Assembly (NCBI GenBank): GCA_015233285.1
Contig: JADFYA010000026.1
Coordinates: 1-12,928 of the forward strand
Direction: 5' to 3'
Origin: Deltaproteobacteria bacterium
Lineage (GTDB): Bacteria > Desulfobacterota > JADFXK01
DNA length: 12,928 nucleotides
Position numbers and translations under genes: made by a program. A model generated the notes under the pieces. That model searched no databases, was not told the DNA's origin, and saw only the letters and a program-made list of their open reading frames with translations. How positions within the stretch are numbered: the stretch's first letter is position 1; each line of letters begins with the position of its first letter. This document shows positions 184-12,928 of the stretch, one piece after another.

Positions 184-858
184 ATGGAAGCTGCAGACAA
201 AAAGGGGACCGATACTCGAGAGCGTTTAATCCAGGCCGCGGGAGAGGTCTTTGCCCAGCGCGGCTTTAAAGGCGCCACTGTGCGTGAAATCTCGCGGCAG
301 GCCAACGCCAATATAGCCGCCGTCAATTATCACTTTGGCGATAAGGAAGAGCTGTATTATGAGGTGTTGAAAAACTCGCTCAGCTCCGTACTTGAAAAGT
401 ACCCGCCGGATCTCGGCGTCACCCCCGAGTCCACCCCGGAAGAGCGGCTGCATGCCTTCATCCGGTCGCTGCTTTTCCGCGTACTCGACGAAAGCCGCCC
501 CACCTGGCACGCCAGGCTCATGGCCAGGGAAATCGCCGAACCGACGGCTGCTCTCGACCAAATGATCGAAAATATATTAGGCCCGTTATACGGTTATTTG
601 ACTATGGTCGTAAAACAACTTATAAGCGATGAAGCAAATGATGAACTGGTCCACAATTGTATGTTCAGCATCATGGGGCAGTGCCTTTTTTATCACAATG
701 CCCGCCACGTCATTTCAAAGCTGTACCATAAAAAATTTGGGCCGGAAGTCATTGAGCGCTTAAGCACGCATATCATGAGATTTTCATTAGGAGCGATGAA
801 GGATTTGGGGATTCTTGACACGAGTCATGCAAAAGCGAACTATATTTCTTCACAATGA
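184..858 (+). CDS. TetR/AcrR-family repressor with CerR/CecR-type C-terminal domain
   Basis: This 224-residue protein is a one-component transcriptional repressor that probably senses a toxic compound and controls the downstream efflux operon. Residues 11-56 form the TetR DNA-binding domain: TRERLIQAAGEVFAQRGF leads into the helix-turn-helix at about 32-51, which ends in the typical AVNYHFGDKEELY. Residues from about 84 to 210, including HARLMAREIAEPTAALD (109-125) and GQCLFYHNAR (165-174), resemble the CerR C-terminal domain (formerly DUF1956) seen in E. coli CecR (YbiH). CecR neighbours and regulates an efflux system with its own membrane fusion protein. The gene overlaps the fusion protein gene by ATGA (855-858), so regulator and pump are translated together. 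A palindrome overlapping its own promoter suggests autorepression. The family assignment is firm; the ligand is unknown. Confidence 0.9.
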   Translation: MEAADKKGTDTRERLIQAAGEVFAQRGFKGATVREISRQANANIAAVNYHFGDKEELYYEVLKNSLSSVLEKYPPDLGVTPESTPEERLHAFIRSLLFRVLDESRPTWHARLMAREIAEPTAALDQMIENILGPLYGYLTMVVKQLISDEANDELVHNCMFSIMGQCLFYHNARHVISKLYHKKFGPEVIERLSTHIMRFSLGAMKDLGILDTSHAKANYISSQ

Positions 859-2105
859 AGATTTATGATGAGGTTATGCCTATGATGTTCACTCAAGACG
901 TTAACGAAAATAATGAGCCGCGGCGGACTCTGTTTAGCACCATCCTCAGGCGCTGGTGGATATGGCTGCCGGCATGTATCCTGGTCATCATCGGCGGCTA
1001 TGCCCACCTGACCAAAGCGGGGGACCAGGCGACGCCCCAGGCCAAGAAAGGGTCGTCCGCTGCGCCCAAAAGCGTACCCGTTGTGGCGACCGCGGCAAAA
1101 CAAGGGGACATAAAAATTTATCTTAACGGACTCGGGGCCGTCACCCCGCTCAACACCGTCACCATCAAGAGCCGTGTCGACGGGCAGTTGATGAAAGTCA
1201 TGTTCCGGGAAGGCCAGACAGTCAACAAGGGATACCTTCTGGCCCAAATCGACCCGCGGCCGTTTGAGGCACAGTTGACCCAGGCCCAAGGGCAGATGGC
1301 CCGAGACCGGGCCCTGCTTGAAAACGCCCAGGTGGATGTCAAACGCTACCAGGAGTTGATCGCCCAGGATTCCATAGCCAAGCAGCAACTGGACACTCAG
1401 AAAGCCCTGGTGCGCCAGTATGAAGGGGCGGTCAAGATCGATCAAGGCCAGATCGATAACGTCAAATTGCAGTTGATTTACTGCCGCATCACTGCGCCGG
1501 TCAGCGGACGGATCGGGTTGCGCCTCGTGGATGAGGGTAACATCGTTCACGCCGCTGATGCCAACGGGTTGGCCGTCATCACGCAGCTACAACCCATTAC
1601 GGTTATTTTTTCCATACCGGAGGATAATCTTCAGTCTGTGCTGGAGAAACTTAAAGCGGGCATCCAGTTGCCGGTGGAAGCCCTCAATCGCGAGCAATCC
1701 AAAAAACTTGCCACGGGATACTTGCTGACCGTCGATAACCAGATCGACCCGACCACCGGCACGGTTCGGCTCAAGGCTGAGTTCCCCAACAAAGACAGTG
1801 AACTGTTCCCCAACCAATTCGTCAATGCCCGCCTGCTGTTGGATACTAAGCGCGGGACCGTGACTGTCCCGGCCGCCGCCTTGCAACGAAGCCCCCAGGG
1901 AGCTTTTGTATATATTGTCAATGATGATCAGACGGTCGCGGTGCGTCCGGTCTATGTCGGACCCGGTGAAGGCGATTCGATATCCATCGACAAAGGACTC
2001 TCGCCTGGGGAACTCGTGGTGCTCGAAGGTGCGGAAAGGCTGCGTGCCGGCAGCAAAGTAGAAGTAAAGGTTCAAGGCGCCAAAACCTCCCAAAAGGGCA
2101 ATTGA
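855..2105 (+). CDS. mdtA: RND efflux periplasmic adaptor (membrane fusion protein), MdtA-like
   Basis: The 416-residue adaptor links the inner-membrane RND pump to the outer-membrane channel. From memory it aligns along its length with E. coli MdtA, which has about the same length. A membrane anchor lies at about 34-50 ([17 protein letters not shown]) instead of a lipobox. It is followed by the first half of the lipoyl domain (about 105-134, ending QIDP), a coiled-coil hairpin (about 135-207), the second lipoyl half ([13 protein letters not shown], 209-221), a beta-barrel (about 245-330, with [13 protein letters not shown]) and a membrane-proximal domain (about 335-405). The start at 855 overlaps the TetR stop (ATGA) but has no Shine-Dalgarno of its own. 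GAGG at 870-873 sits 8 nt before an in-frame ATG at 882, so translation may begin there, shortening the protein by 9 residues ahead of the anchor. The stop overlaps the next start by one base. Confidence 0.92.
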
Positions 2106-5100
2106 TGAATCCCTCGCGTATCTTTATTTTGCGTCCCGTTGCGACGGCCCTGCTGATGGTGGCCATCCTCCTGGCCGGCGCCGTGGCCTATCGCCAATTG
2201 CCGGTTTCCGCGCTGCCCCAGGTGGATTATCCGACCATCCAGATACTCTCTTTTTTTCCTGGGGCCAGCCCCGATGTCGTGGCCTCATCAATTACGGCAC
2301 CCCTGGAGCGGCAATTCGGCCAAATGCCGGGTCTGAAGCAGATGACCTCCAACAGCTCAGCCGGCAGTTCGGTGATCACGCTGCAATTCATTCTGGACCT
2401 CAGTCTGGACGTCGCCGAGCAACAGGTGCAGGCCGCCATTAATGCCGCAGCCACGTACTTGCCCAGGGACCTGCCCAACCCTCCGGTATACAGCAAGGTC
2501 AACCCGGCTGATGCGCCCATCCTGACGCTGGCCCTGACCTCGAAGGCCCTCCCCTTGCCCAAAGTCGAGGACCTGGCCGACACCCGACTGGCCCAGAAGA
2601 TATCGCAAGTACCGGGCGTCGGGCTGGTCAGTATCAGCGGCGGGCAAAGACCCGCAGTGAGAATTCAGGCTAATCCGACGGCCCTGGCCGCCTACGGCCT
2701 AACCCTCGAAGACCTGCGGGCCGCCATCGTTGCAGCCAATGTCAACCAGGCCAAAGGGGGATTCGACGGCCCGCGCCAGTCCTATATCATCGGAGCCAAT
2801 GACCAGCTCCTCTCCAGTAGCGAATACCGGACGTTGATTGTCGCCTATCGCTCCGGTGCTCCGATAATTTTGTCCGATGTGGCCGATGTGGTCGACGACG
2901 CCGAAAACGTAAAACAAGCGGCCTGGATGAACACATCCCCGGCTGTTATCGTCAACATCCAGCGCCAGCCGGGGGCCAATGTCATTGAAGTCGTCGACCG
3001 CGTCAAAAAACTTCTGCCCCAGTTGCAGAGCGCCCTACCCGCGTCCGTGCAGGTGTCCATACTGACCGACCGGACCACGACCATCCGCGGGTCGGTCGCG
3101 GATGTGCAGATCGAGCTGATTTTGGCGGTGGTGCTGGTGGTCCTGGTCATCTTTCTCTTTTTGCGCAACCTGGCCGCCACGATCATTCCCAGCGTGGCCG
3201 TTCCCCTGTCTCTGATCGGGACCTTCGGAGTGATGTATTTGCTGGGGTTCAGTCTGAACAACCTGTCCTTAATGGCCCTGACGATTTCAACCGGGTTTGT
3301 GGTCGATGACGCCATTGTTATGATCGAAAATGTGTCTCGATACATCGAACAAGGGGAATCACCCCTGGAGGCCGCCCTAAAGGGGTCCCAGCAAATTGCC
3401 TTCACCATCGTGTCCTTGACCATCTCGCTCATCGCCGTGCTCATCCCACTTCTTTTCATGGGTGATGTGGTGGGCCGGTTGTTCCGTGAATTCGCCATCA
3501 CCCTCGGCGTGACAATCCTCATCTCGGCCGTGGTCTCTCTGACTCTGACCCCGATGATGTGTTCGCGGCTGCTTCACCATACACCGGAGGAAAAGCAAGG
3601 CCGCCTTTTCCGGGCCTCGCAGCACATGTACGACAGAGTCATCGAACTTTACGGAACGACTCTTCGCTGGATTTTGAAACGACAAACGGCGACGCTGCTC
3701 GTGGCCCTGGCTACCCTGGCCCTGACGGTTTTCTTGTTCGTTATCATCGCCAAAGGTTTTTTTCCGGTTCAGGATACCGGCATCATTCTGGGTATCTCGG
3801 AGGCGCCCCAATCTATCTCGTTTAAGGCCATGGCGGAGCAACAACAAGCCCTGGCCAAGGTCATCCTGCAAGATCCGGGAGTCGAAAGCCTATCCACGTT
3901 TATCGGAGTTGATGGAATCAATACCAGCCTGAACAGCGGACGGGTCCTGATTAACCTGAAGCCGTTAAAAGAACGCAAATTAAACGCCACCGATATCATC
4001 CGCCGCCTCCAACCGGAGCTGGCCAAGCTTCAGGGTATCTCACTGTTTATGCAGCCGGTACAGGATCTTACGGTTGAGGATCGGGTCAGCCGAACACAAT
4101 ACCAGTACAGCCTGGAAGACCCCAGCCTTGACGAATTGAACTACTGGACCCCCAAATTGGTGGAGGCTTTGAGGAAACTGCCCGAGCTTCGCGACATGAG
4201 CAGCGATCTACAAAGCAACGGGCTGCAGCTTACGCTGGACTTCGACCGGAACACGGCCTCACGGATGGGTATCACTCCCCAGATGATTGACGACACCCTT
4301 TACGACGCCTTCGGCCAGCGTCAAGTTTCAACTATATATACCCAGTTGAACCAATATCGCGTCGTTCTCGAGGTTAAGCCCGAATTCCAACAAAATCCGG
4401 ACAAACTAAAAATGATCTACGTCCGCAGCGCCGGCGGCGGGCAAGTGCCGTTAAGCGTCATCACGAGCCATAAAGAGACGACCGGGCCTCTGGTCATCAG
4501 CCACCAGGGTCAGTTTCCATCCACGACGTTGTCGTTCAATCTGGCGCCGGGAAAATCTCTGGGTGACGCCGTTCAGGCTATCGAGGCGACGACGAAAGAG
4601 CTGGGGTTACCTCTTAGCATCCGAGGAAGTTTTCAGGGTACGGCTCAAGCCTTCCAGGCGTCTCTAGCCAACGAGCCGATACTCATTCTGGCCGCCCTGG
4701 TGACGGTCTACATCGTGCTCGGAGTGCTGTATGAAAGCTATATTCACCCGATTACGATCCTGTCCACCCTTCCCTCAGCCGGAGTCGGGGCGATTCTGGC
4801 CCTGCTTTTGTTTCGGACTGAGTTCAGCGTTATCGCCCTGATCGGGATTATCTTGCTCATCGGCATCGTGAAAAAGAACGCCATCATGATGGTCGACTTC
4901 GCTCTGGATGCGGAACGGAACGAAGGAAAGCCCCCGGGGGAGGCCATTTACCAGGCCTGCTTGCTGAGATTCCGGCCGATCATGATGACGACCATGGCGG
5001 CCCTGCTGGGGGCGTTACCTCTGGCTATAGGGACCGGTCTGGGCTCGGAGTTGCGTCACCCCCTGGGCATTTCCATCGTCGGCGGGCTGATCTTCAGCCA

Positions 5101-5206
5101 GATTCTTACCCTTTACACGACTCCGGTGATCTATCTCTGGTTCGACCGGTTGGCCACGCGCTTCGGCCGGCGCCGTTTTCAGTCCTCATATCCGGAGACA
5201 ATCTGA
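2105..5206 (+). CDS. mdtB: RND efflux pump inner-membrane subunit, MdtB-like
   Basis: This 1033-residue proton-driven pump subunit is a full-length HAE1-type RND transporter. It has the N-terminal transmembrane helix (about 7-29), two large periplasmic loops and two six-helix bundles. The proton-relay residues are present: the Asp pair in [13 protein letters not shown] (D401, D402) and the Lys pair in [11 protein letters not shown] (K923, K924). Stretches such as [27 protein letters not shown] and [20 protein letters not shown] match E. coli MdtB better than MdtC. In E. coli MdtB and MdtC assemble as a B2C heterotrimer, and the MdtC-like neighbour suggests the same here. The ATG at 2105 is preferred over the TTG at 2102: AAAAGGG (2092-2098) is 6 nt upstream, and the codon overlaps the mdtA stop as TGATG. 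Substrates cannot be read from sequence; E. coli MdtABC handles bile salts, novobiocin and related compounds. Confidence 0.93.
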
Positions 5207-5265
5207 CGGCATCAGCGTCGGCGGTTATCGAAACTTAAAACCTGAAGGCGAAGACCAAGAATTAT

Positions 5266-8200
5266 ATGAACATTTCGGCACCTTTTATAAAGCGACCCGT
5301 CGCCACCACGCTCCTGACGATCGGCATGGCCCTGGCCGGGATGATCGCCTTTAATTTTTTACCCGTGTCGCCCCTGCCGCAGGTTGATTTTCCGACGATC
5401 CAGGTCTCGTCCTCCCTGCCGGGAGCGGATCCGGAGACCATGGCCACATCAGTTGCCGCGCCTCTGGAACGGCAATTGGGTCACATCGCCGGGGTAACCG
5501 AGATGACGTCGACCAGTTTCACCGGATCGACCAATATCGTGTTACAGTTTGAGTTGAACCGCGACATCAACGGAGCGGCGCGCGATGTCCAGGCCGCCAT
5601 CAATGCGGCGCGAAGTTACCTGCCGGCGAACCTGCCCGAAACTCCCAACTACCGCAAGGTCAATCCGGCTGATGCCCCGATTCTCATCCTGGCCCTCATT
5701 TCCGACAAGGTTAGCAAAGCGGCGATGTATGACGCGGCTTCAACCATTCTCCAGCAAAAGCTGGCTCAGGTGGAGGGAGTGGGCCAGGTCTTCGTGGGAG
5801 GCGGCTCATTGCCGGCAGTCAGGGTGGAGTTGAATCCGGCTGCGTTGAACAAATATGGGATCGGCTCTCAAGACGTCCGCACCTTGCTGCGCAGCACCAA
5901 CGTGAACCGGCCCAAGGGACAACTGGCCGACACGACCCGGACCTGGGAGATAAAGGCAAACGATCAGCTATTTAAGGCTGAGCAGTACCGGTCCTTGATC
6001 GTGGCTTACCGGAATGGGGCGGCAGTCAGGTTGTCGGATTTGGGCGAGGTATTAGATTCGGTGGAGGATCTTCGGGCCGAGGGATTCGTAAACGGCCGGC
6101 CGGCCGTAATGGTGGTTATCTTCCGGCAACCGGGAGCCAATATCATCGAAACGGTCGATCGGGTCCAAAACCTGCTCCCTCAATTAAAGGCTTCTATTCC
6201 CCAGGACATCGATCTGCCGATTGTGCTCGACCGAACCCCGCCGATCCGCGGTTCTCTGAAACACGTCGAGCTGACGCTGATTATTTCAGGCGCGCTGGTC
6301 ATCCTAGTTGTCTTCGCCTTCCTGCGAAATGTCCGGGCCACTCTTATCCCGAGCATCGCGGTTCCGGTCTCGCTCATCAGCACCTTCGGAGTTATGTATC
6401 TGTGCGGCTACAGCCTGGACAACCTGTCCCTTATGGCCATGACCATCGCCACGGGATTCGTCGTTGATGATGCTATTGTCGTGCTCGAAAACATCACCCG
6501 ATACATGGAAAAGGGGGAATCGCCGCTGCAAGCGGCGTTTTCCGGGGCAAAAGAAATTGCCTTTACCGTCTTGTCCATGAGCTTTTCTCTGGTTGCGGTA
6601 TTCATCCCTATCCTTCTGATGGGAGGCATGGTCGGCCGGCTGTTCCGTGAGTTCGCCGTGACCCTCTCCGCGGCTATTTTGATCTCTCTTGTGGTGTCTC
6701 TAACGACGACCCCTATGATGTGCGCGGTGCTCCTAAGGCACGAAGAAGACAGCGCTCACGGGCGGATGTTCAGGGCCAGCGAATGGGTCTTCAACATGAT
6801 GCGCCACGGCTATGATGTAAGCCTTCGCTGGGCATTGAGGCACCCCCGGTTCATGCTCACCCTGACGGTGCTCACGGTGGGGGTCAGTATCTATTTGTTC
6901 ATGATCGTTCCCAAGGGCTTTTTCCCCGAGCAGGACACCGGACGCATCAGCGGCAACATTATAGCCTCGCAGGACATATCATACCAGGCCATGAGAGACA
7001 AGTTGTCGGCTATTGTCGATATCATCAAAAGCGACCCTGACGTGACTTACGTGACCGGCTTCACCGGCGGCGGCGGTCGGGGCGGTTCGGCCACCAATAC
7101 GGCGCGGATGTTCATTTCGCTGAAACCGTTTGGGGTACGGAAAGCCGACGCCCGGCAGATAATTGGAAGGCTGCGTAAAAAGCTGGCTCAAGTCCCGGGC
7201 GCTCCCACCTATCTGCAACCGGTGCAGGATTTGCGCATCGGCGGAAGAGGCGGCGCCGCTCTGTATCAATATACGCTCCAGGGAGACAACCTGGCTGAGC
7301 TGAACACCTGGGCCCCGCGGATGATGCAGCAACTGCTGACATTGCCCGAGCTGGTGGATGTCAACAGTGATCAGCAGGACAAAGGGCTACAGGCTTCGTT
7401 GGTGGTCGACCGCAACGCCGCGTCAAAACTCGGCCTGACATCGCAACTCATAGACGATACCCTGTATGACGCCTTCGGACAACGTCAGGTGACCATCGCC
7501 TACACTATGTTGAACCAATACCATGTGGTCATGGAAGTGGCTCCAAGCTTTTGGCAGCGGCCCGACACGTTGCGGAACATTTACATTCGGTCCTCCACCG
7601 GGGCGGAGGTGCCGCTGAGCAGTTTCACCCGCTATGTGCCTACGGCTACGTCTCTTTCCGTAAATCATTTGGGCCAGTTTCCGTCGGTGACCACCTCGTT
7701 TAATCTGTGGCCGGGAGCCGCGCTCGGGGATGCCGTGAAGTCGATTGAACAGGCCGCGCGCAAGCTGGGATTGCCGGCCGGCATCCGGGCCAGCTTTTTG
7801 GGTACGGCCCAAGCCTTCAAAGCCTCGCTGGCAAACCAACCCTGGCTGATTCTGGCTGCTCTGGTTACGGTTTACATCGTGCTCGGGATACTATACGAAA
7901 GCTATATCCACCCGATCACCATTCTCTCCACCCTGCCCTCAGCCGGTGTCGGGGCTCTTTTCGCCCTGCTGGTCTCGGGCACGGAGCTCAATCTTATCGC
8001 CATGATCGGCATCCTCCTGCTGATAGGTATCGTCAAGAAGAACGGCATCATGATGGTCGACTTCGCCTTAGCCACCGAACGTCAAGGGAAAGTGGACTCC
8101 GCTGAATCGATTTATCAGGCCTGTCTCCTGCGGTTCAGGCCCATCATGATGACGACCATGGCCGCCCTATTGGGGGCGCTGCCTCTGGCGGTAGGGGGGG

Positions 8201-8382
8201 GAGTGGGGGCGGAGCTTCGGCGCCCGCTCGGTATCGCCATCGTCGGCGGGTTGATCTTCAGCCAGATGCTGACACTCTATACAACGCCGGTCATTTATCT
8301 TTACATGGACCGCTTTCGGCTATGGTTCCAAAACGTCCGGACAGGACGCCGACTGCGGAAAGAAACAAACAAGATTGCTTAG
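5266..8382 (+). CDS. mdtC: RND efflux pump inner-membrane subunit, MdtC-like
   Basis: This 1038-residue second pump subunit is full length and keeps the proton-relay residues: D401, D402 in [13 protein letters not shown], and K924, K925 in IGIVKKNGIMM. Stretches such as [37 protein letters not shown] and NSDQQDKG resemble E. coli MdtC rather than MdtB, so the mdtB-mdtC order is conserved. In E. coli MdtC is the minor member of the B2C trimer and does most of the drug binding. A glycine-rich loop at 598-609 (GFTGGGGRGGSA) is several residues longer than in E. coli MdtC. A 59-nt gap separates the gene from mdtB. The nearest purine-rich Shine-Dalgarno candidate (GAAGGCGAAG, 5243-5252) is 13 nt from the ATG, so initiation may be weaker than for mdtB, which would suit a B-rich stoichiometry. 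That last point is inference. Confidence 0.93.
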   Translation: MNISAPFIKRPVATTLLTIGMALAGMIAFNFLPVSPLPQVDFPTIQVSSSLPGADPETMATSVAAPLERQLGHIAGVTEMTSTSFTGSTNIVLQFELNRDINGAARDVQAAINAARSYLPANLPETPNYRKVNPADAPILILALISDKVSKAAMYDAASTILQQKLAQVEGVGQVFVGGGSLPAVRVELNPAALNKYGIGSQDVRTLLRSTNVNRPKGQLADTTRTWEIKANDQLFKAEQYRSLIVAYRNGAAVRLSDLGEVLDSVEDLRAEGFVNGRPAVMVVIFRQPGANIIETVDRVQNLLPQLKASIPQDIDLPIVLDRTPPIRGSLKHVELTLIISGALVILVVFAFLRNVRATLIPSIAVPVSLISTFGVMYLCGYSLDNLSLMAMTIATGFVVDDAIVVLENITRYMEKGESPLQAAFSGAKEIAFTVLSMSFSLVAVFIPILLMGGMVGRLFREFAVTLSAAILISLVVSLTTTPMMCAVLLRHEEDSAHGRMFRASEWVFNMMRHGYDVSLRWALRHPRFMLTLTVLTVGVSIYLFMIVPKGFFPEQDTGRISGNIIASQDISYQAMRDKLSAIVDIIKSDPDVTYVTGFTGGGGRGGSATNTARMFISLKPFGVRKADARQIIGRLRKKLAQVPGAPTYLQPVQDLRIGGRGGAALYQYTLQGDNLAELNTWAPRMMQQLLTLPELVDVNSDQQDKGLQASLVVDRNAASKLGLTSQLIDDTLYDAFGQRQVTIAYTMLNQYHVVMEVAPSFWQRPDTLRNIYIRSSTGAEVPLSSFTRYVPTATSLSVNHLGQFPSVTTSFNLWPGAALGDAVKSIEQAARKLGLPAGIRASFLGTAQAFKASLANQPWLILAALVTVYIVLGILYESYIHPITILSTLPSAGVGALFALLVSGTELNLIAMIGILLLIGIVKKNGIMMVDFALATERQGKVDSAESIYQACLLRFRPIMMTTMAALLGALPLAVGGGVGAELRRPLGIAIVGGLIFSQMLTLYTTPVIYLYMDRFRLWFQNVRTGRRLRKETNKIA

Positions 8383-8407
8383 CTCGGTGCTGGTTGCTGG
8401 TTACCTG

Positions 8408-8435
8408 TTGTTTGTTGCTTGTTGCTTGTTGCTTG
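8408..8435. repeat. Heptamer tandem repeat, four units (TTGTTTG then 3x TTGCTTG)
   Basis: Four 7-bp units occur head to tail at 8408-8414 (TTGTTTG), 8415-8421, 8422-8428 and 8429-8435 (each TTGCTTG). Degenerate GGTTGCTGGTTAC sequence precedes them. The array occupies part of the 123-nt gap between the mdtC-like pump and the outer membrane channel gene. I see no strong terminator in this gap. Small imperfect dyads (CAATGCCATTG at 8437-8447, CGGA/TCCG at 8459-8472) follow the array. Confidence 0.85.
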
Positions 8436-8456
8436 TCAATGCCATTGAATTAAGAT
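8429..8456 (+). promoter_or_regulatory. Weak candidate internal promoter before the outer membrane channel gene
   Basis: TTGCTT of the last heptamer unit (8429-8434) could act as a poor -35 element, with TAAGAT (8451-8456) as a four-of-six -10 at 16-bp spacing. The match is weak. It is noted because only this repeat unit sits at a usable distance, so loss or gain of units would change the upstream context. Confidence 0.2.
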
Positions 8457-8505
8457 TCCGGATTGGTGTCCGCATTACCCAGGGTGGGATCAAAAAGGGA
8501 CAATT

Positions 8506-10017
8506 ATGACCGTTCAAAGTATAACAAAGTTCTTCAAAGCATACTCGGAGCCGAAGCGGCTGACATTCGCCGCGGCGGTCGGAGTGCTTTTACTTTTCAC
8601 CGGCTGTACGGTCGGTCCGAATTACGTCCGTCCCAAAGCCGCCGCGCCCATCGCTTATAAGGAATCGGAAGGCTGGAAAGTGGCCCAGCCCAGGGACCAC
8701 CTCATCCGGGGGGCATGGTGGGAGATTTTCAATGATCCTCAGTTGAATGCTTTGGAAGAACAAGTCAACATCTCCAACCAAAATCTGGCCGCGGCGGAGG
8801 CTCAGTTTCGACAGGCCCGGGCCCTGGTTCAGTCGGCTCGGTCCGCCTTTTTCCCTCAAGTCACGGCTGGAGCAACTTTCACGCGCACGCGCCGTTCTCT
8901 CAATACGGCCGGCGGCTCTCTTGGTTCGGCCGGTCCCGATACAGACTTGCTCCTGCCAGGCAACGTGTCTTGGGAATTGGATGTCTGGGGCCGGGTTCGG
9001 CGGTCTGTAGAGTCCAGCCAGGCCGGCGCCCAGGCCAGCGCCGCGGACCTGGAAACGATCCGTTTAAGCATCCAGGCCGAACTGGCCCAGGATTATTTCT
9101 CGCTGCGCGCATTGGATGCCCAAACGCGGCTTTTTGACGAAACGATCACCGCTTACCAGAAATTTCTCCAGGTGACCAAAAACCGGTACGAAAAAGGGGT
9201 GGCCTCCAAGGCTGACGTTCTTCAGGCGGAAACCCAGCTCAAATCCACCCAGGCACAAGCGATCGACGTCGGCGTGGGGCGGGCCCAGATGGAACATGCC
9301 ATAGCCGTACTCCTAGGCAAACCCGCCTCCGACCTGTCCATTCCCCTGGCCCCGCTGACAACGGCTCCACCGCCCATACCCGTTGATGTGCCGTCGGAAC
9401 TCCTGGAGCGCAGACCCGACATCGCCGCAGCCGAAAGACGCGTCGCCGCGGCCAATGCCCAGATCGGAGTAGCCGAGGCGGCCTTTTATCCAAGACTTAC
9501 TTTGGGCGCATCCGGGGGATTTGAAAGTACGATGCCGGCCTCCTGGCTGTCGTGGCCAAGCAGCCTCTGGTCAGTAGGGGCGGCTCTCTCCCAGACAGTG
9601 TTCGACGGGGGAGCAAGGCGAGCTTTGACCGATCAGGCCCGGGCGGCTTACGACGCCAATGTGGCCGCCTATCGTCAGACTGTGCTTAATGGATTTCGGG
9701 AGGTTGAAGACAATCTGGCCGCTCTTCGGATCCTGGAGGATGAAGGGCGGGTCCAGGATGAGGCAGTGAAGTCCGCAGAGCAATCCGTAACCGTGAGCAC
9801 CAACCAGTATAAGGCAGGGACGATCAGTTACCTTGAAGTCCTGGTTGTTCAAACAATCGCCCTAACCAACGAGCGGGCCGCCATCAATATCCTTGGCCGC
9901 CGGATGACCGCCGGTGTTCTTCTCATCAAAGCCCTGGGTGGAGGATGGCGATCCTTGGATTTGCCTTCCACCGACAATATCGCCGGCAAACTGGAGACCG
10001 CGCCCAGCAAGCGTTAG
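8506..10017 (+). CDS. Outer membrane efflux lipoprotein, NodT/OprM family
   Basis: The 503-residue protein is the TolC-like trimeric exit duct of the efflux system. The N-terminus has a signal peptide (about 1-33) ending in LLLFTGC, so Cys34 is the likely lipidated residue, followed by TVGPNYVRP, which is typical of the NodT family. Phe rather than Leu at the -3 lipobox position is slightly atypical. Two outer-membrane-efflux repeats follow, at about 75-270 and 295-480. They include WELDVWGRVRR (156-166) and LLERRPDIAAAE (299-310), both family hallmarks, and long alpha-helical coiled segments. AAAAAGGGA (8492-8500) is 5 nt before the ATG and fixes the start. In E. coli mdtABC has no channel gene and uses TolC, so this operon is self-sufficient. 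The gene follows mdtC after a 123-nt gap carrying a heptamer repeat. Confidence 0.92.
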   Translation: MTVQSITKFFKAYSEPKRLTFAAAVGVLLLFTGCTVGPNYVRPKAAAPIAYKESEGWKVAQPRDHLIRGAWWEIFNDPQLNALEEQVNISNQNLAAAEAQFRQARALVQSARSAFFPQVTAGATFTRTRRSLNTAGGSLGSAGPDTDLLLPGNVSWELDVWGRVRRSVESSQAGAQASAADLETIRLSIQAELAQDYFSLRALDAQTRLFDETITAYQKFLQVTKNRYEKGVASKADVLQAETQLKSTQAQAIDVGVGRAQMEHAIAVLLGKPASDLSIPLAPLTTAPPPIPVDVPSELLERRPDIAAAERRVAAANAQIGVAEAAFYPRLTLGASGGFESTMPASWLSWPSSLWSVGAALSQTVFDGGARRALTDQARAAYDANVAAYRQTVLNGFREVEDNLAALRILEDEGRVQDEAVKSAEQSVTVSTNQYKAGTISYLEVLVVQTIALTNERAAINILGRRMTAGVLLIKALGGGWRSLDLPSTDNIAGKLETAPSKR

Positions 10018-10034: not shown

Positions 10035-11042
10035 GTGGATCAAGAAACAGAAAAACTGAAGATCCGGCCGGTTGAAGAATTCGTCGCTTTTTTGCAAAAA
10101 ATCGGCCAAACCAGTATTGACGGCCGGCCGGCCCAGGCCAGTCGAACCGCCTTTATCACCGCCTTTATGCGGGCCTTCCACTCCATCAACGAAAACCCCA
10201 AGGTCTTCGACGACTGGATGGCCGCGCGGTTGCTCTCCACTGAGGAATACGCATTTTTCGAGGAGATGTACTATCGGGGGACCGTAAAAGATGAGACTGA
10301 GGAGCCGGTTTCGCCCACCCAACGCCGGGCGGTGGTCACCGCGGTCTTGCGGGCGGGGGCGGCCGGAGGAGTTCTCAGCCGAGCCCGGTTCGCCGAGGAC
10401 TCACTTGAGACTGCCATCGACCGGGGTATTCGGCAGTATGTGCTTTTAGGGGCCGGACTGGACACCTTCGCTCTTCGCCGGGCCGACCTTCTCGATAAAA
10501 TTCAGGTTATTGAGGTAGATCATCCGGCGACTCAGGCACTCAAACGCCAACGTCTGTCTGCCATGGGCCATTTGGCCCCGCCCTCGCTGGAATTCATCGC
10601 CGTCGATTTTTCCCAGGAAAATTTGCCCCAGGCCCTCTCCCGTTCTTCCTTCGATTTTGAAACCCCGGCCTTTTTCAGTTGGCTGGGCGTAACCTATTAC
10701 CTGGAGCGAGAAAATCTGTTTCAGGTTCTCCACAGCTTGAGTGAGACGGCCGCTCCCCACAGTCGGGTGGTTTTCGATTATATGGACACCGAGGCTTTCG
10801 ATCCGGACATGGCCACACCACGAGTGAAAGACCTCAGGAACAAAGTCCGGCTTCTGGGTGAACCGATGAAAACAGGCCTGGATCCCAGGACATTGGAAAA
10901 GGATCTCAGGCAGGCCGGATGGAAGCTGCTTCAGAACCTGGCACCCAACGATATAGAAAAAATCTACTTCCAAGAAGGGCCGGAGGGATTTCGAGCCGGA
11001 AAGCACATTCATCTGGCCCTGGCGAGCTTGCCCGGCCGATGA
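10035..11042 (+). CDS. SAM-dependent methyltransferase, LCMT/PPM-like family (COG3315, TIGR00027 type)
   Basis: This 335-residue cytoplasmic class I methyltransferase is predicted to transfer a methyl group from S-adenosylmethionine to a small-molecule carboxyl or hydroxyl. It resembles the leucine carboxyl methyltransferase superfamily used in polyketide and related metabolism. The SAM-binding motif I is YVLLGAGLDT (135-144). The acidic strand-2 motif is VIEVDHPATQ (158-167), then FIAVDF (187-192) and the FFSWLGVTYYL segment (213-223) characteristic of the family. The N-terminal helical lid (1-125) includes SRTAFITAFMRAFHS. The GTG start at 10035 has GGAGA (10021-10025) 9 nt upstream, and the gene begins 17 nt after the channel gene stop, so it is probably the last gene of the pump operon. 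I see no convincing terminator after it. The substrate is unknown; a link to the exported compound is possible but unproven. Confidence 0.85.
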   Translation: MDQETEKLKIRPVEEFVAFLQKIGQTSIDGRPAQASRTAFITAFMRAFHSINENPKVFDDWMAARLLSTEEYAFFEEMYYRGTVKDETEEPVSPTQRRAVVTAVLRAGAAGGVLSRARFAEDSLETAIDRGIRQYVLLGAGLDTFALRRADLLDKIQVIEVDHPATQALKRQRLSAMGHLAPPSLEFIAVDFSQENLPQALSRSSFDFETPAFFSWLGVTYYLERENLFQVLHSLSETAAPHSRVVFDYMDTEAFDPDMATPRVKDLRNKVRLLGEPMKTGLDPRTLEKDLRQAGWKLLQNLAPNDIEKIYFQEGPEGFRAGKHIHLALASLPGR

Positions 11043-11226: not shown

Positions 11227-11232
11227 AGGAGA
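11227..11232 (+). promoter_or_regulatory. Strong ribosome binding site selecting the GTG start at 11240
   Basis: AGGAGA ends 7 nt before the GTG at 11240. The upstream in-frame ATG at 11186 has no Shine-Dalgarno, and it would bury the signal peptide behind a hydrophilic 18-residue extension. The GTG is therefore the better start. Confidence 0.8.
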
Positions 11233-11239
11233 TGGCGAA

Positions 11240-12571
11240 GTGAAAATATTGAGAAGGCTGGTTATGGCTACCTTGGTTGTATTGTGGGCCGTCACCGGAT
11301 CAGCCTTAATGGTCTGGTCACAGGATAAAGCCCAAGGCATTCCGCCCAAGCTCAACTTAGACGAGGAGAAGCTAAAGGCGAACATCCTGGCTCGGATCCG
11401 GACCATCCAAAACGAAGGAGCATCGGGTAGCCGGACTTTCGAGGCCGCTTCGGTGGTGATCAAGAAAAAAGTCCCTTTCACTCTGGGATCAGTGGATTTC
11501 TTTGCGGTCAGAGCTATGTTGGTCCCGCCCAGCGTGGCGGCCGACCAGAAGCCGGGCGTGCTGGATTTGATAGTGGACCATACCGGCCGGTTCCGGTTCA
11601 CCGATATACGAGATATGGTGACTGGAAAGAGCTTGACCCAGGCGCACCTGGCTGAAGCTGCCCGAGTCGAGATTCCGGGAGGCGTCAGGGTGGAAATACT
11701 TGAGGGATCAAACCGGCATGACGTGGCGCTTATGGCCAAGCCGCCCAAGTCCGAACTCGATGAGCAGAGACTAAAGGACAATGTTTTGGCCCGGGTCCGG
11801 TCCGTAAGAAGTAGTGGGGCGCCGGCTGCTCAAAACTTTGGGGCCTTCGCCGTGGATATCAAGAAAAAAGTCCCTTTTGATGTCGGACCACTAGGTCTAT
11901 TCGCGGTCAGGATGATGGTGCTTCAGCCGAGCCCCGCACTCGACCCCAAACCGGGTAACCTGGCTTTGACGGTGGACCATACCGGCCGTTTTCAGTTCTC
12001 TGAGATAGATGAGCTGGCCACCGGGGCTAGCCTGTCCCACGCGGCCATGGCCGAAGCCACACGAGTTAACCTACCGGACAAATTATCGATAGCTGTATTT
12101 AACGGATCCGGAAAACATAACGTCGTGACTGTTTCAGATCCCTTTTGTCCGGCTTGCCGGAAGGTCTGGAATCATCTGTGGAGCCGGCGCGACCAACTAA
12201 AGTCGATCAGGATATGCCATTATCCGGTGCATCCCGGCTCTGAGGTCGTCTTCGCCATAATATTACACGCCCACGCAAAACAAATCAGCCTGGCCGAGGT
12301 AGTCAATTTTGCCTACACCAAGCTGGAGATGAAAGAAAAGCCTGAAGAAATAATTCAGCAATTTTTTGACGCCTTTCCGAAGCTCCAGAAAAGCCTGGGC
12401 GGCAACACGACGGTTGCTTATAAAATCCTAACTGTCTCCTATGCCTCTTTGCTGAACTCTGAAGTCAGTGAAACGACATCATTAGGCGTCACCTCGGTTC
12501 CCATCGTCTTCATTGACGGGACCATGGTCATTGGGTTCGAGGAAAAGCAAATTACCGAGTTAACGTCATGA
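11240..12571 (+). CDS. Secreted DsbC-like thioredoxin-fold protein with tandemly duplicated N-terminal domain
   Basis: This 443-residue exported protein probably makes or shuffles disulfide bonds in the periplasm. Starting at the GTG, MKILRRLVMATLVVLWAV begins a signal peptide or anchor (about 1-28). Residues 38-170 and 171-302 are two copies of one domain, aligning without gaps at roughly half identity. The second copy runs directly into the thioredoxin fold, as the DsbC dimerisation domain does: GKHNVVTVSDPFCPACRK parallels the E. coli DsbC segment around its CGYC site. The active site is C303-P-A-C306 and the cis-proline is in TSVPI (P421), followed by GTMVIGF as in DsbC. The first copy has no cysteine; the only other cysteine is C326. 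About 118 residues separate CxxC and cis-Pro, more than in DsbC, so the helical insert may be DsbA-like. The stop overlaps the VKOR-like gene (ATGA). Membership of the thiol-disulfide superfamily is firm; oxidase versus isomerase role is open. Confidence 0.8.
   Translation: MKILRRLVMATLVVLWAVTGSALMVWSQDKAQGIPPKLNLDEEKLKANILARIRTIQNEGASGSRTFEAASVVIKKKVPFTLGSVDFFAVRAMLVPPSVAADQKPGVLDLIVDHTGRFRFTDIRDMVTGKSLTQAHLAEAARVEIPGGVRVEILEGSNRHDVALMAKPPKSELDEQRLKDNVLARVRSVRSSGAPAAQNFGAFAVDIKKKVPFDVGPLGLFAVRMMVLQPSPALDPKPGNLALTVDHTGRFQFSEIDELATGASLSHAAMAEATRVNLPDKLSIAVFNGSGKHNVVTVSDPFCPACRKVWNHLWSRRDQLKSIRICHYPVHPGSEVVFAIILHAHAKQISLAEVVNFAYTKLEMKEKPEEIIQQFFDAFPKLQKSLGGNTTVAYKILTVSYASLLNSEVSETTSLGVTSVPIVFIDGTMVIGFEEKQITELTS
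11351..11749. repeat. Intragenic tandem duplication, copy 1 (399 bp)
   Basis: This copy encodes residues 38-170 of the DsbC-like protein and lacks cysteines. It matches copy 2 at a constant 399-bp offset. For example, the 20 bases at 11459-11478 are identical to 11858-11877, and the 17 bases at 11573-11589 are identical to 11972-11988. By hand alignment about 60 of some 130 residues are identical, without gaps. Confidence 0.85.
11750..12145. repeat. Intragenic tandem duplication, copy 2
   Basis: This copy encodes residues 171-302 and ends immediately before the CPAC active site. Its layout (LDEQRLKDNVLARVR helix, IKKKVPF, FAVR strand, VDHTGRF hairpin, ATG..L linker, GSGKH strand) repeats copy 1. 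The VDHTGRFQFSEIDELATG part resembles the YITDDGKHIIQG region of the E. coli DsbC dimerisation domain. Confidence 0.85.
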
Positions 12572-12928
12572 AATCGGGCTCCTCACCATTCATCGCGGTA
12601 GTCAGCCTGGCTGGATTGATTTATTGTATCTGTTCGGCCGCCGGATTGACCGAGTCTTGGTGTTTTACCCAAGGTTGCCGGGTCTATAAAGACTATTCCT
12701 TCGCCGGGATATCTCTTTATTGGTTCGGCGCCCTGGCTTTCGCTGTTTTGGCGGCTTTTTCCCTGATCCGGCCGGGGTCCAGGTATCTGCTGGGGATAGC
12801 CTCCTTATTTGTCTTGGGTGACTGTTGCTTTCTTTTTTTTCAGATAATGCTTTGGCCATGTGTCAGTTGTCTCCTGGCCGCGGTTTGTCTTGGCTCGGCC
12901 TACCTGGCGCTTATTCGGACCCAGGGCC
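12568..12928 (+). CDS. VKOR-like membrane oxidoreductase, 3'-truncated by the window end
   Basis: An open frame from the ATG at 12568 runs uninterrupted to the window end (120 codons, no stop). Predicted membrane helices lie at about 8-26, 48-68, 73-95 and from 98 on. A cysteine pair, C32 and C37 (WCFTQGC), lies in the loop after helix 1. YSFAGISLYWFGALAF (43-58) resembles the conserved FGIPxSxxG region of vitamin K epoxide reductase homologues. The CxxC motif CVSC (98-101) sits at the start of helix 4. This four-cysteine layout is that of bacterial VKOR, which passes electrons from a thioredoxin-fold partner to quinone, replacing DsbB. The start overlaps the stop of the DsbC-like gene (ATGA), so the two are probably translationally coupled and are likely redox partners. 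Additional cysteines (C20, C22, C86, C87, C107) lie within helices. Whether a fused domain follows cannot be seen. Confidence 0.7.
   Translation, partial: MKSGSSPFIAVVSLAGLIYCICSAAGLTESWCFTQGCRVYKDYSFAGISLYWFGALAFAVLAAFSLIRPGSRYLLGIASLFVLGDCCFLFFQIMLWPCVSCLLAAVCLGSAYLALIRTQG

Follow-up and report, generated by a model that had tools for sequence, protein, structure and literature searches.

A DsbC/DsbG-architecture oxidoreductase with a tandemly duplicated N-module overlaps a VKOR-like gene in a deltaproteobacterial lineage

Near the end of the window (the whole stretch of deltaproteobacterial DNA analysed here, 12,928 nucleotides) lies a gene for an oxidoreductase of DsbC/DsbG architecture in which two copies of the N-module precede a single thioredoxin-fold catalytic domain. 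Comparison of the copies with each other and with their relatives indicates that the module was duplicated within the protein's own lineage, giving an N-N-Trx arrangement in one chain. We tentatively favor a reading of this protein as a pseudo-dimeric oxidase of its lineage, with the two N-modules pairing within the molecule, and an isomerase role comes next. The fuller picture is possible but rather more doubtful: a natural single-chain pseudo-dimer in which a duplicated N-module, one catalytic arm and a switch to Val-cisPro and CPAC have made an isomerase-type scaffold into the lineage's only periplasmic disulfide oxidase, re-oxidised by a coupled, divergent VKOR-thioredoxin fusion protein.

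The open reading frame list placed the start of the oxidoreductase gene at an upstream ATG. We prefer the GTG at 11240, where the ortholog L002/P0001 also starts and which is preceded by an AGGAG at 11227-11231. The features of the locus are as follows:

11240..12571, + strand: oxidoreductase gene of DsbC/DsbG architecture, 443 aa (open reading frame; GTG start, TGA stop)
11240..11320, + strand: N-terminal hydrophobic segment, residues 1-27 (helix H2-27 in the structure model), a probable signal sequence
11354..11743, + strand: N-module copy 1, residues 39-168 (BLASTP to copy 2; single-copy module profile)
11684..11752, + strand: junction between the copies, residues 149-171 (sequence; pLDDT <50 at residues 149-166)
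11753..12112, + strand: N-module copy 2, residues 172-291 (single-copy module profile)
12089..12568, + strand: thioredoxin-fold catalytic domain with a helical insert, residues 284-443
12146..12157, + strand: active site CPAC, residues 303-306 (sequence)
12497..12502, + strand: Val420-Pro421 at the cis-Pro loop position, Val being typical of many DsbAs (family alignment)
12568..12928, + strand: 5' part of a VKOR-like gene, the window ending inside it; its ATGA overlaps the upstream stop

The 443-residue protein is apparently exported, judging from the modelled N-terminal helix. Copy 1 comprises a helix, strands, a linker helix and a remnant that matches thioredoxin strand 1, and within the junction RHDVALMAKP is the counterpart of KHNVVTVSDP in the thioredoxin domain. 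In the structure model the elements of copy 1 are H42-58, E71-82, E85-95, E106-113 and H132-141, and those of copy 2 are H175-190, E205-215, E218-228, E238-246 and H267-273. The only cysteines of the protein are C303, C306 and C326, all within the thioredoxin domain, and C303 and C306 are invariant in the family alignment. Only the two-copy lineage, with 4 of 119 rows, has a Cys at residue 326 (window 12215-12217). At residue 338 (window 12251-12253) a Cys is common, in 96 of 119 rows, but the window protein and P0002 have Phe there. By sequence, a C326-C338 disulfide would be possible in P0001 and P0003 only.

Directly 5' of the oxidoreductase gene is a SAM-dependent methyltransferase gene of the TIGR00027/LCM family (10035-11042), and a similar methyltransferase-like ORF, recognised by eye, precedes the oxidoreductase gene in L002 (4704-5801). 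Positions 184-10017 of the window encode, consecutively, a TetR-type regulator, a membrane-fusion protein, two RND pumps and an outer-membrane channel, an arrangement that to the eye resembles an Mdt-type efflux operon. In L001 (2229-3338) and L003 (1792-5857) the opposite strand further downstream holds flagellar export genes, FlhB/FliR/FliP-like as judged by eye. A scan for viral contigs found nothing.

The first-pass annotation had described two tandem copies at an exact 399-bp spacing ahead of a single CPAC thioredoxin domain, and both parts of that description hold: the distance from LDEEKL at residue 40 (base 11357) to LDEQRL at residue 173 (base 11756) is exactly 399 bp, and there is only one catalytic domain. 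Copy 1 aligns to copy 2 without gaps at 62 of 129 identical residues (48%) and 92 of 129 positives (BLASTP, E 6e-46); a fixed-register comparison gives 62 identities over 130 residues, against a maximum of 20 and a mean of 9.2 when copy 2 was shuffled 2000 times. A module profile built from 115 single-copy rows, with two-copy rows excluded, matches residues 40-157 (E 6.9e-27) and residues 172-292 (E 4.9e-27), in both cases across nearly the full model of 118 positions. Chance similarity is rejected by the BLASTP alignment, the shuffles and the profile, and by these sequence comparisons each copy is a complete N-module. An HMM search of each copy against the DsbC N-terminal domain had been proposed as a check on this relationship and gave a divided answer: the single-copy profile recognises both copies, but Pfam DsbC_N (PF10411) gave no score for the window protein while scoring in the E. 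coli control. The absence of cysteine from copy 1, also noted at first pass, is real but does not distinguish that copy, since copy 2 equally has none.

At the DNA level, the duplication is old. A search for DNA repeats listed none between copies 1 and 2, their nucleotide identity is 0.60-0.61, and dS between them is 1.0-1.2. When the window is compared with L002, both modules and the thioredoxin domain show a dS of 0.2-0.35, with 0.54 in the 20-codon tail of copy 1, and these lower values place the duplication before the split of these genomes. Copy 1 (dN/dS 0.37) and copy 2 (0.44) have similar ratios in the same comparison, indicating that both are under constraint; the ratio of the thioredoxin domain is 0.26. 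The N-module tree unites copies 1 and 2 in a single clade (UFBoot 100; 100 for copy 1 and 95 for copy 2), and separate families as the source of the two copies are thereby rejected. The trees disagree on what lies next to the two-copy lineage: the N-module tree has P0110, P0111 and P0113-P0115 there (support 59), the thioredoxin-domain tree the L007 group (support 98).

The first-pass annotation had also called for a survey of one- versus two-copy homologues. Among 132 collected proteins, three have two modules (the window protein, P0001 and L001), 122 have one and seven have none. A single-copy alignment search returned 127 proteins, of 151-354 aa among the matches listed (120), and a search for further two-copy relatives returned six, all of them known lineage members, P0114, or pieces. 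The proteins closest to that of the window come from Deltaproteobacteria MAGs labelled nDJH. Other nDJH bins are named in PMC7602337, which deals with magnetic enrichments, some from acidic peat, and we infer a peat origin for the MAGs carrying the closest proteins. In the genome collection the class of these MAGs amounts to three genomes (G001-G003). G001 and G002 carry two modules, and the gene of G003 is split by a contig end into P0125, which contains a copy 1 and stops at residue 175, and P0003, which begins at residue 176; the two pieces share the HQK58 tag prefix. The assembly break of G003 thus falls between the copies, and residues 150-176 of L001 are 27 unknown residues; assembly may be impeded by the repeat, or masking may account for the L001 stretch.

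Across the phylum, a profile search matched 114 of 395 drawn genomes at E 1e-6 or better, superseding an earlier search with a four-row alignment (14 of 297 genomes). The family proper occupies eight of the 395 (E 6.1e-86 or better), five of them single-copy, which makes it a rare Dsb-type family in the phylum. Beyond it, once the matches to copy 1 in G001 and G002 (1e-26) are set aside, the next best match is at 7.8e-13. By range, the weaker matches look DsbC-type (about 95-200) or thioredoxin-only (about 154-295), and among the few checked four carry DsbC_N. Our protein and genome searches depend on words in common or on a draw of genomes, and their coverage is not exhaustive.

What sets the catalytic domain of the two-copy lineage apart is the combination of CPAC with Val-cisPro, which is found in all four of its rows and in that lineage only among the 119 rows of the family alignment. 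Thr-cisPro is present in 114 rows and CPYC in 108, the fifth Val row being L009, with CRFC; P0124 also has CPAC and Val-cisPro. Since the four two-copy rows are one lineage, they count as one evolutionary event rather than four. The window protein matches PF01323 (DSBA) at E 0.14, below the cut-off, and PF13462 (Thioredoxin_4) at E 9.5e-5 with 23.1 bits against a cut-off of 23.2; P0001 reaches 27.6 bits for PF13462 and E 0.3 for PF01323, and PF13462 is passed by the orthologs in G001-G003. By the Pfam DSBA model, several relatives with one module resemble DsbA more closely than the two-copy proteins do (L010, E 7.2e-11; L007, E 9.5e-7). The catalytic domain is closest to ScsC, BdbD and DsbA, and Foldseek alignments to DsbG, DsbP and DsbC extend into the N-module, although the Foldseek and VIA rows are concentrated on residues 240-443 and barely touch copy 1. 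A PDB sequence search with the 443-aa protein returned nothing under E 0.001.

Most characterised monomeric DsbAs have Val at the cis-Pro position and DsbC and DsbG have Thr, as set out in PMC7089426, and PMC4960241 gives Thr at this position for characterised class II DsbAs. HP0231 is described in PMC4597128 and PMC4960241 as a dimeric Val-cisPro periplasmic oxidase of Helicobacter pylori, a species without classical DsbA/DsbB. In the latter source, its Val to Thr variant is more oxidising in vitro (-85 mV) and inactive in vivo, and the CPYC/VcP and CGYC/VcP variants acquired isomerase activity. Because of these variant results and the Thr of class II DsbAs, Val-cisPro alone is not an oxidase marker.

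The VKOR-like gene starts within the stop codon of the oxidoreductase gene, with a 4-bp overlap and its ATGA at 12568. The fragment in the window has loop cysteines C32 and C37 (CFTQGC) and a CVSC at residues 98-101. In L001 and L003 the protein is 305 and 303 aa long, with 4-5 hydrophobic segments and a fused CPSC thioredoxin domain, and across the four VKOR-like relatives C32/C37 and C98/C101 are invariant and 4-5 hydrophobic windows are found. The loop cysteines of these fusions (L001:1284-2201, L003:805-1716, L007:572-1495 and L009:2367-3326) are only five apart, and they possibly form a distinct VKOR-like branch. Another fusion, seen by eye in L014 (G059, ORF 754-2037), joins a VKOR-type membrane domain to a DsbA-like domain. 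The adjacent VKOR of the first-pass annotation is present as an overlapping VKOR-like/thioredoxin fusion, but it has no Pfam VKOR match: PF07884 matched neither the window fragment nor the four full-length relatives, and had no match genome-wide in G001-G003 at E 0.01. A PDB sequence search with the VKOR-like alignment likewise gave nothing under E 0.001. Profile comparison yields 42% to L023/L024, themselves below the PF07884 cut-off, and 0.35% to a two-row VKOR alignment (L022, which is PF07884-positive, and L014, recognised by eye); as L023/L024 reach only 0.54% against that same alignment, the comparison is insensitive. The VKOR-like label thus leans on anatomy and a weak bridge to L023/L024, and the protein appears too divergent for the Pfam model.

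Co-occurrence of the two genes, another check suggested at first pass, extends past the two-copy proteins. The pair is present in 3/3 two-copy genomes (cut by a contig end in G002) and in two of five single-copy genomes (G295 and G210); it was not detected in the single-copy genomes G254, G297 and G042. All six loci in which the pair was seen (window, L001, L002, L003, L007 and L009) have the ATGA overlap. The first-pass annotation had proposed a natural isomerase-to-oxidase design in which a second N-module lets VKOR oxidise the protein. Val-cisPro, a signature of many DsbAs, and the lack of any DsbA or DsbB match in the lineage's genomes make an oxidase role plausible, but the enabling part is not supported: single-copy L007 and L009 adjoin the same fusion, and HP0231, a dimer with one N-domain per chain, is an oxidase. 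We reject the duplication as the cause of the VKOR link, and since L007, with Thr-cisPro and CPYC, has the same neighbor, partnership and duplication are separate traits. In the thioredoxin-domain tree the two-copy proteins group with the L007 group (UFBoot 98), of which the sampled locus, L007, has the VKOR-like neighbor, so that the partnership extends beyond the two-copy lineage.

If the protein is an oxidase, copy 1 would replace the N-module otherwise supplied by the second subunit of a DsbC-type dimer, and a single chain would provide a pseudo-dimeric base for substrate binding that carries one catalytic arm. This arm, with its CPAC and Val-cisPro loop, would donate disulfides to exported proteins and be re-oxidised by the VKOR-like protein, probably via the fused CPSC thioredoxin domain. 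The two-copy protein would then be the lineage's main periplasmic disulfide-forming enzyme, perhaps retaining some isomerase or chaperone activity through its N-modules. Genome profile searches of G001-G003 found DsbB, DSBA and DsbC_N in 0/3 each, and at E 0.001 the two-copy protein is the sole Thioredoxin_4 match in every one of the three. These absences are weak evidence, because the genome search misses true matches (it missed the L007 protein for DSBA in G295, which hmmscan scores above the cut-off) and the MAGs may be incomplete. Against the oxidase reading stand the HP0231 variant results, the stronger DSBA scores of several single-copy relatives and the VKOR-like neighbor of single-copy L007. 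Moreover, the thioredoxin domain of the VKOR-like protein may itself be that protein's direct partner, and DsbD_TM proteins are present in 3/3 two-copy genomes (frames of 458 aa in G003 and 453 aa in G001), which means that a reductive pathway able to keep the enzyme reduced exists.

That same DsbD_TM content, together with the DsbC/DsbG-like layout and the Foldseek alignments that run into the N-module, speaks for an isomerase or chaperone reduced by a DsbD-type protein, in which copy 1 just enlarges the substrate cleft; in a variant, the protein may still dimerise, with four N-modules and two active sites. We regard this as unlikely, if the best of the alternatives, given Val-cisPro in place of Thr and the conserved overlap with the VKOR-like gene; moreover, without a DsbA or DsbB match it would have no known oxidant to correct, weak as those absences are. 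More improbable still is that copy 1 serves for docking or spacing and stays unpaired with copy 2, binding the VKOR-thioredoxin protein or another envelope partner or lifting the catalytic domain off the membrane. The low-confidence linker at residues 149-166 and the divergence of the copies to 48% identity would suit such a role, but copy 1 keeps the full module profile under constraint similar to that on copy 2, and relatives with a single module have the same VKOR-like partner although they lack a copy 1. Domain-swapped or chain-like higher oligomers, with copy 1 pairing with copy 2 of the next chain, could in principle arise from two homologous dimerisation-type modules per chain and are the least probable arrangement, the single-chain structure model (pTM 0.75) being compatible with a compact monomer without demonstrating one.

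Known systems resemble the two-copy protein in part. E. coli DsbC and DsbG share its order of N-module, linker helix and thioredoxin domain and are likewise exported; they differ in having one N-module and Thr-cisPro, and DsbD keeps them reduced (PMC7089426). The two-copy protein departs from these isomerases through its two modules per chain and Val420-Pro421. It shares Val-cisPro with DsbA-type oxidases, in which no N-modules precede the catalytic domain. ScsC, BdbD and alpha-DsbA2 resemble the catalytic domain only, and their N-terminal parts differ; ScsC has an N-terminal trimerisation region, and BdbD is not known to have an N-terminal part of this kind. HP0231 (DsbK) has a DsbG-like N-module, a thioredoxin domain and Val-cisPro, and differs in having one N-module per chain, forming a homodimer, carrying CPHC and having DsbI, rather than a VKOR-like protein, as its partner. 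Monomeric DsbC mutants complement a dsbA null (PMC7089426, in a passage citing EMBO J 2001 work).

The closest relatives offer the most direct comparison. L007 and L009 share with the two-copy protein the same N-module, the same kind of thioredoxin domain and the ATGA-overlapping VKOR-like/thioredoxin fusion, and are unlike it in having one N-module, with CPYC and Thr-cisPro in L007 and CRFC and Val-cisPro in L009. The N-N-Trx chain and single-copy relatives with the same VKOR-like partner form a matched pair, in which the effects of the extra module and of Val or Thr at the cis-Pro position on partner choice are separately measurable. Why monomeric oxidases become oxidised and dimeric isomerases are spared is a question that has been studied mostly with engineered proteins. 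Bader, as first author in EMBO J in 2001, reportedly described DsbC mutants imitating DsbA. The first-pass annotation knew of no description of a design like the present one, and in the literature searched, which covered few subscription papers, we found no natural DsbC-type protein with two N-modules, but an engineered precedent is said to exist: Arredondo et al. in 2009 reportedly made mDsbC-dim, whose chain joins a pair of dimerisation domains to one catalytic domain and which kept low isomerase activity and gained in vivo oxidation. That protein is artificial and reportedly of the opposite domain order; if the fuller picture of a single-chain pseudo-dimeric oxidase is true, the two-copy protein would be its natural counterpart.
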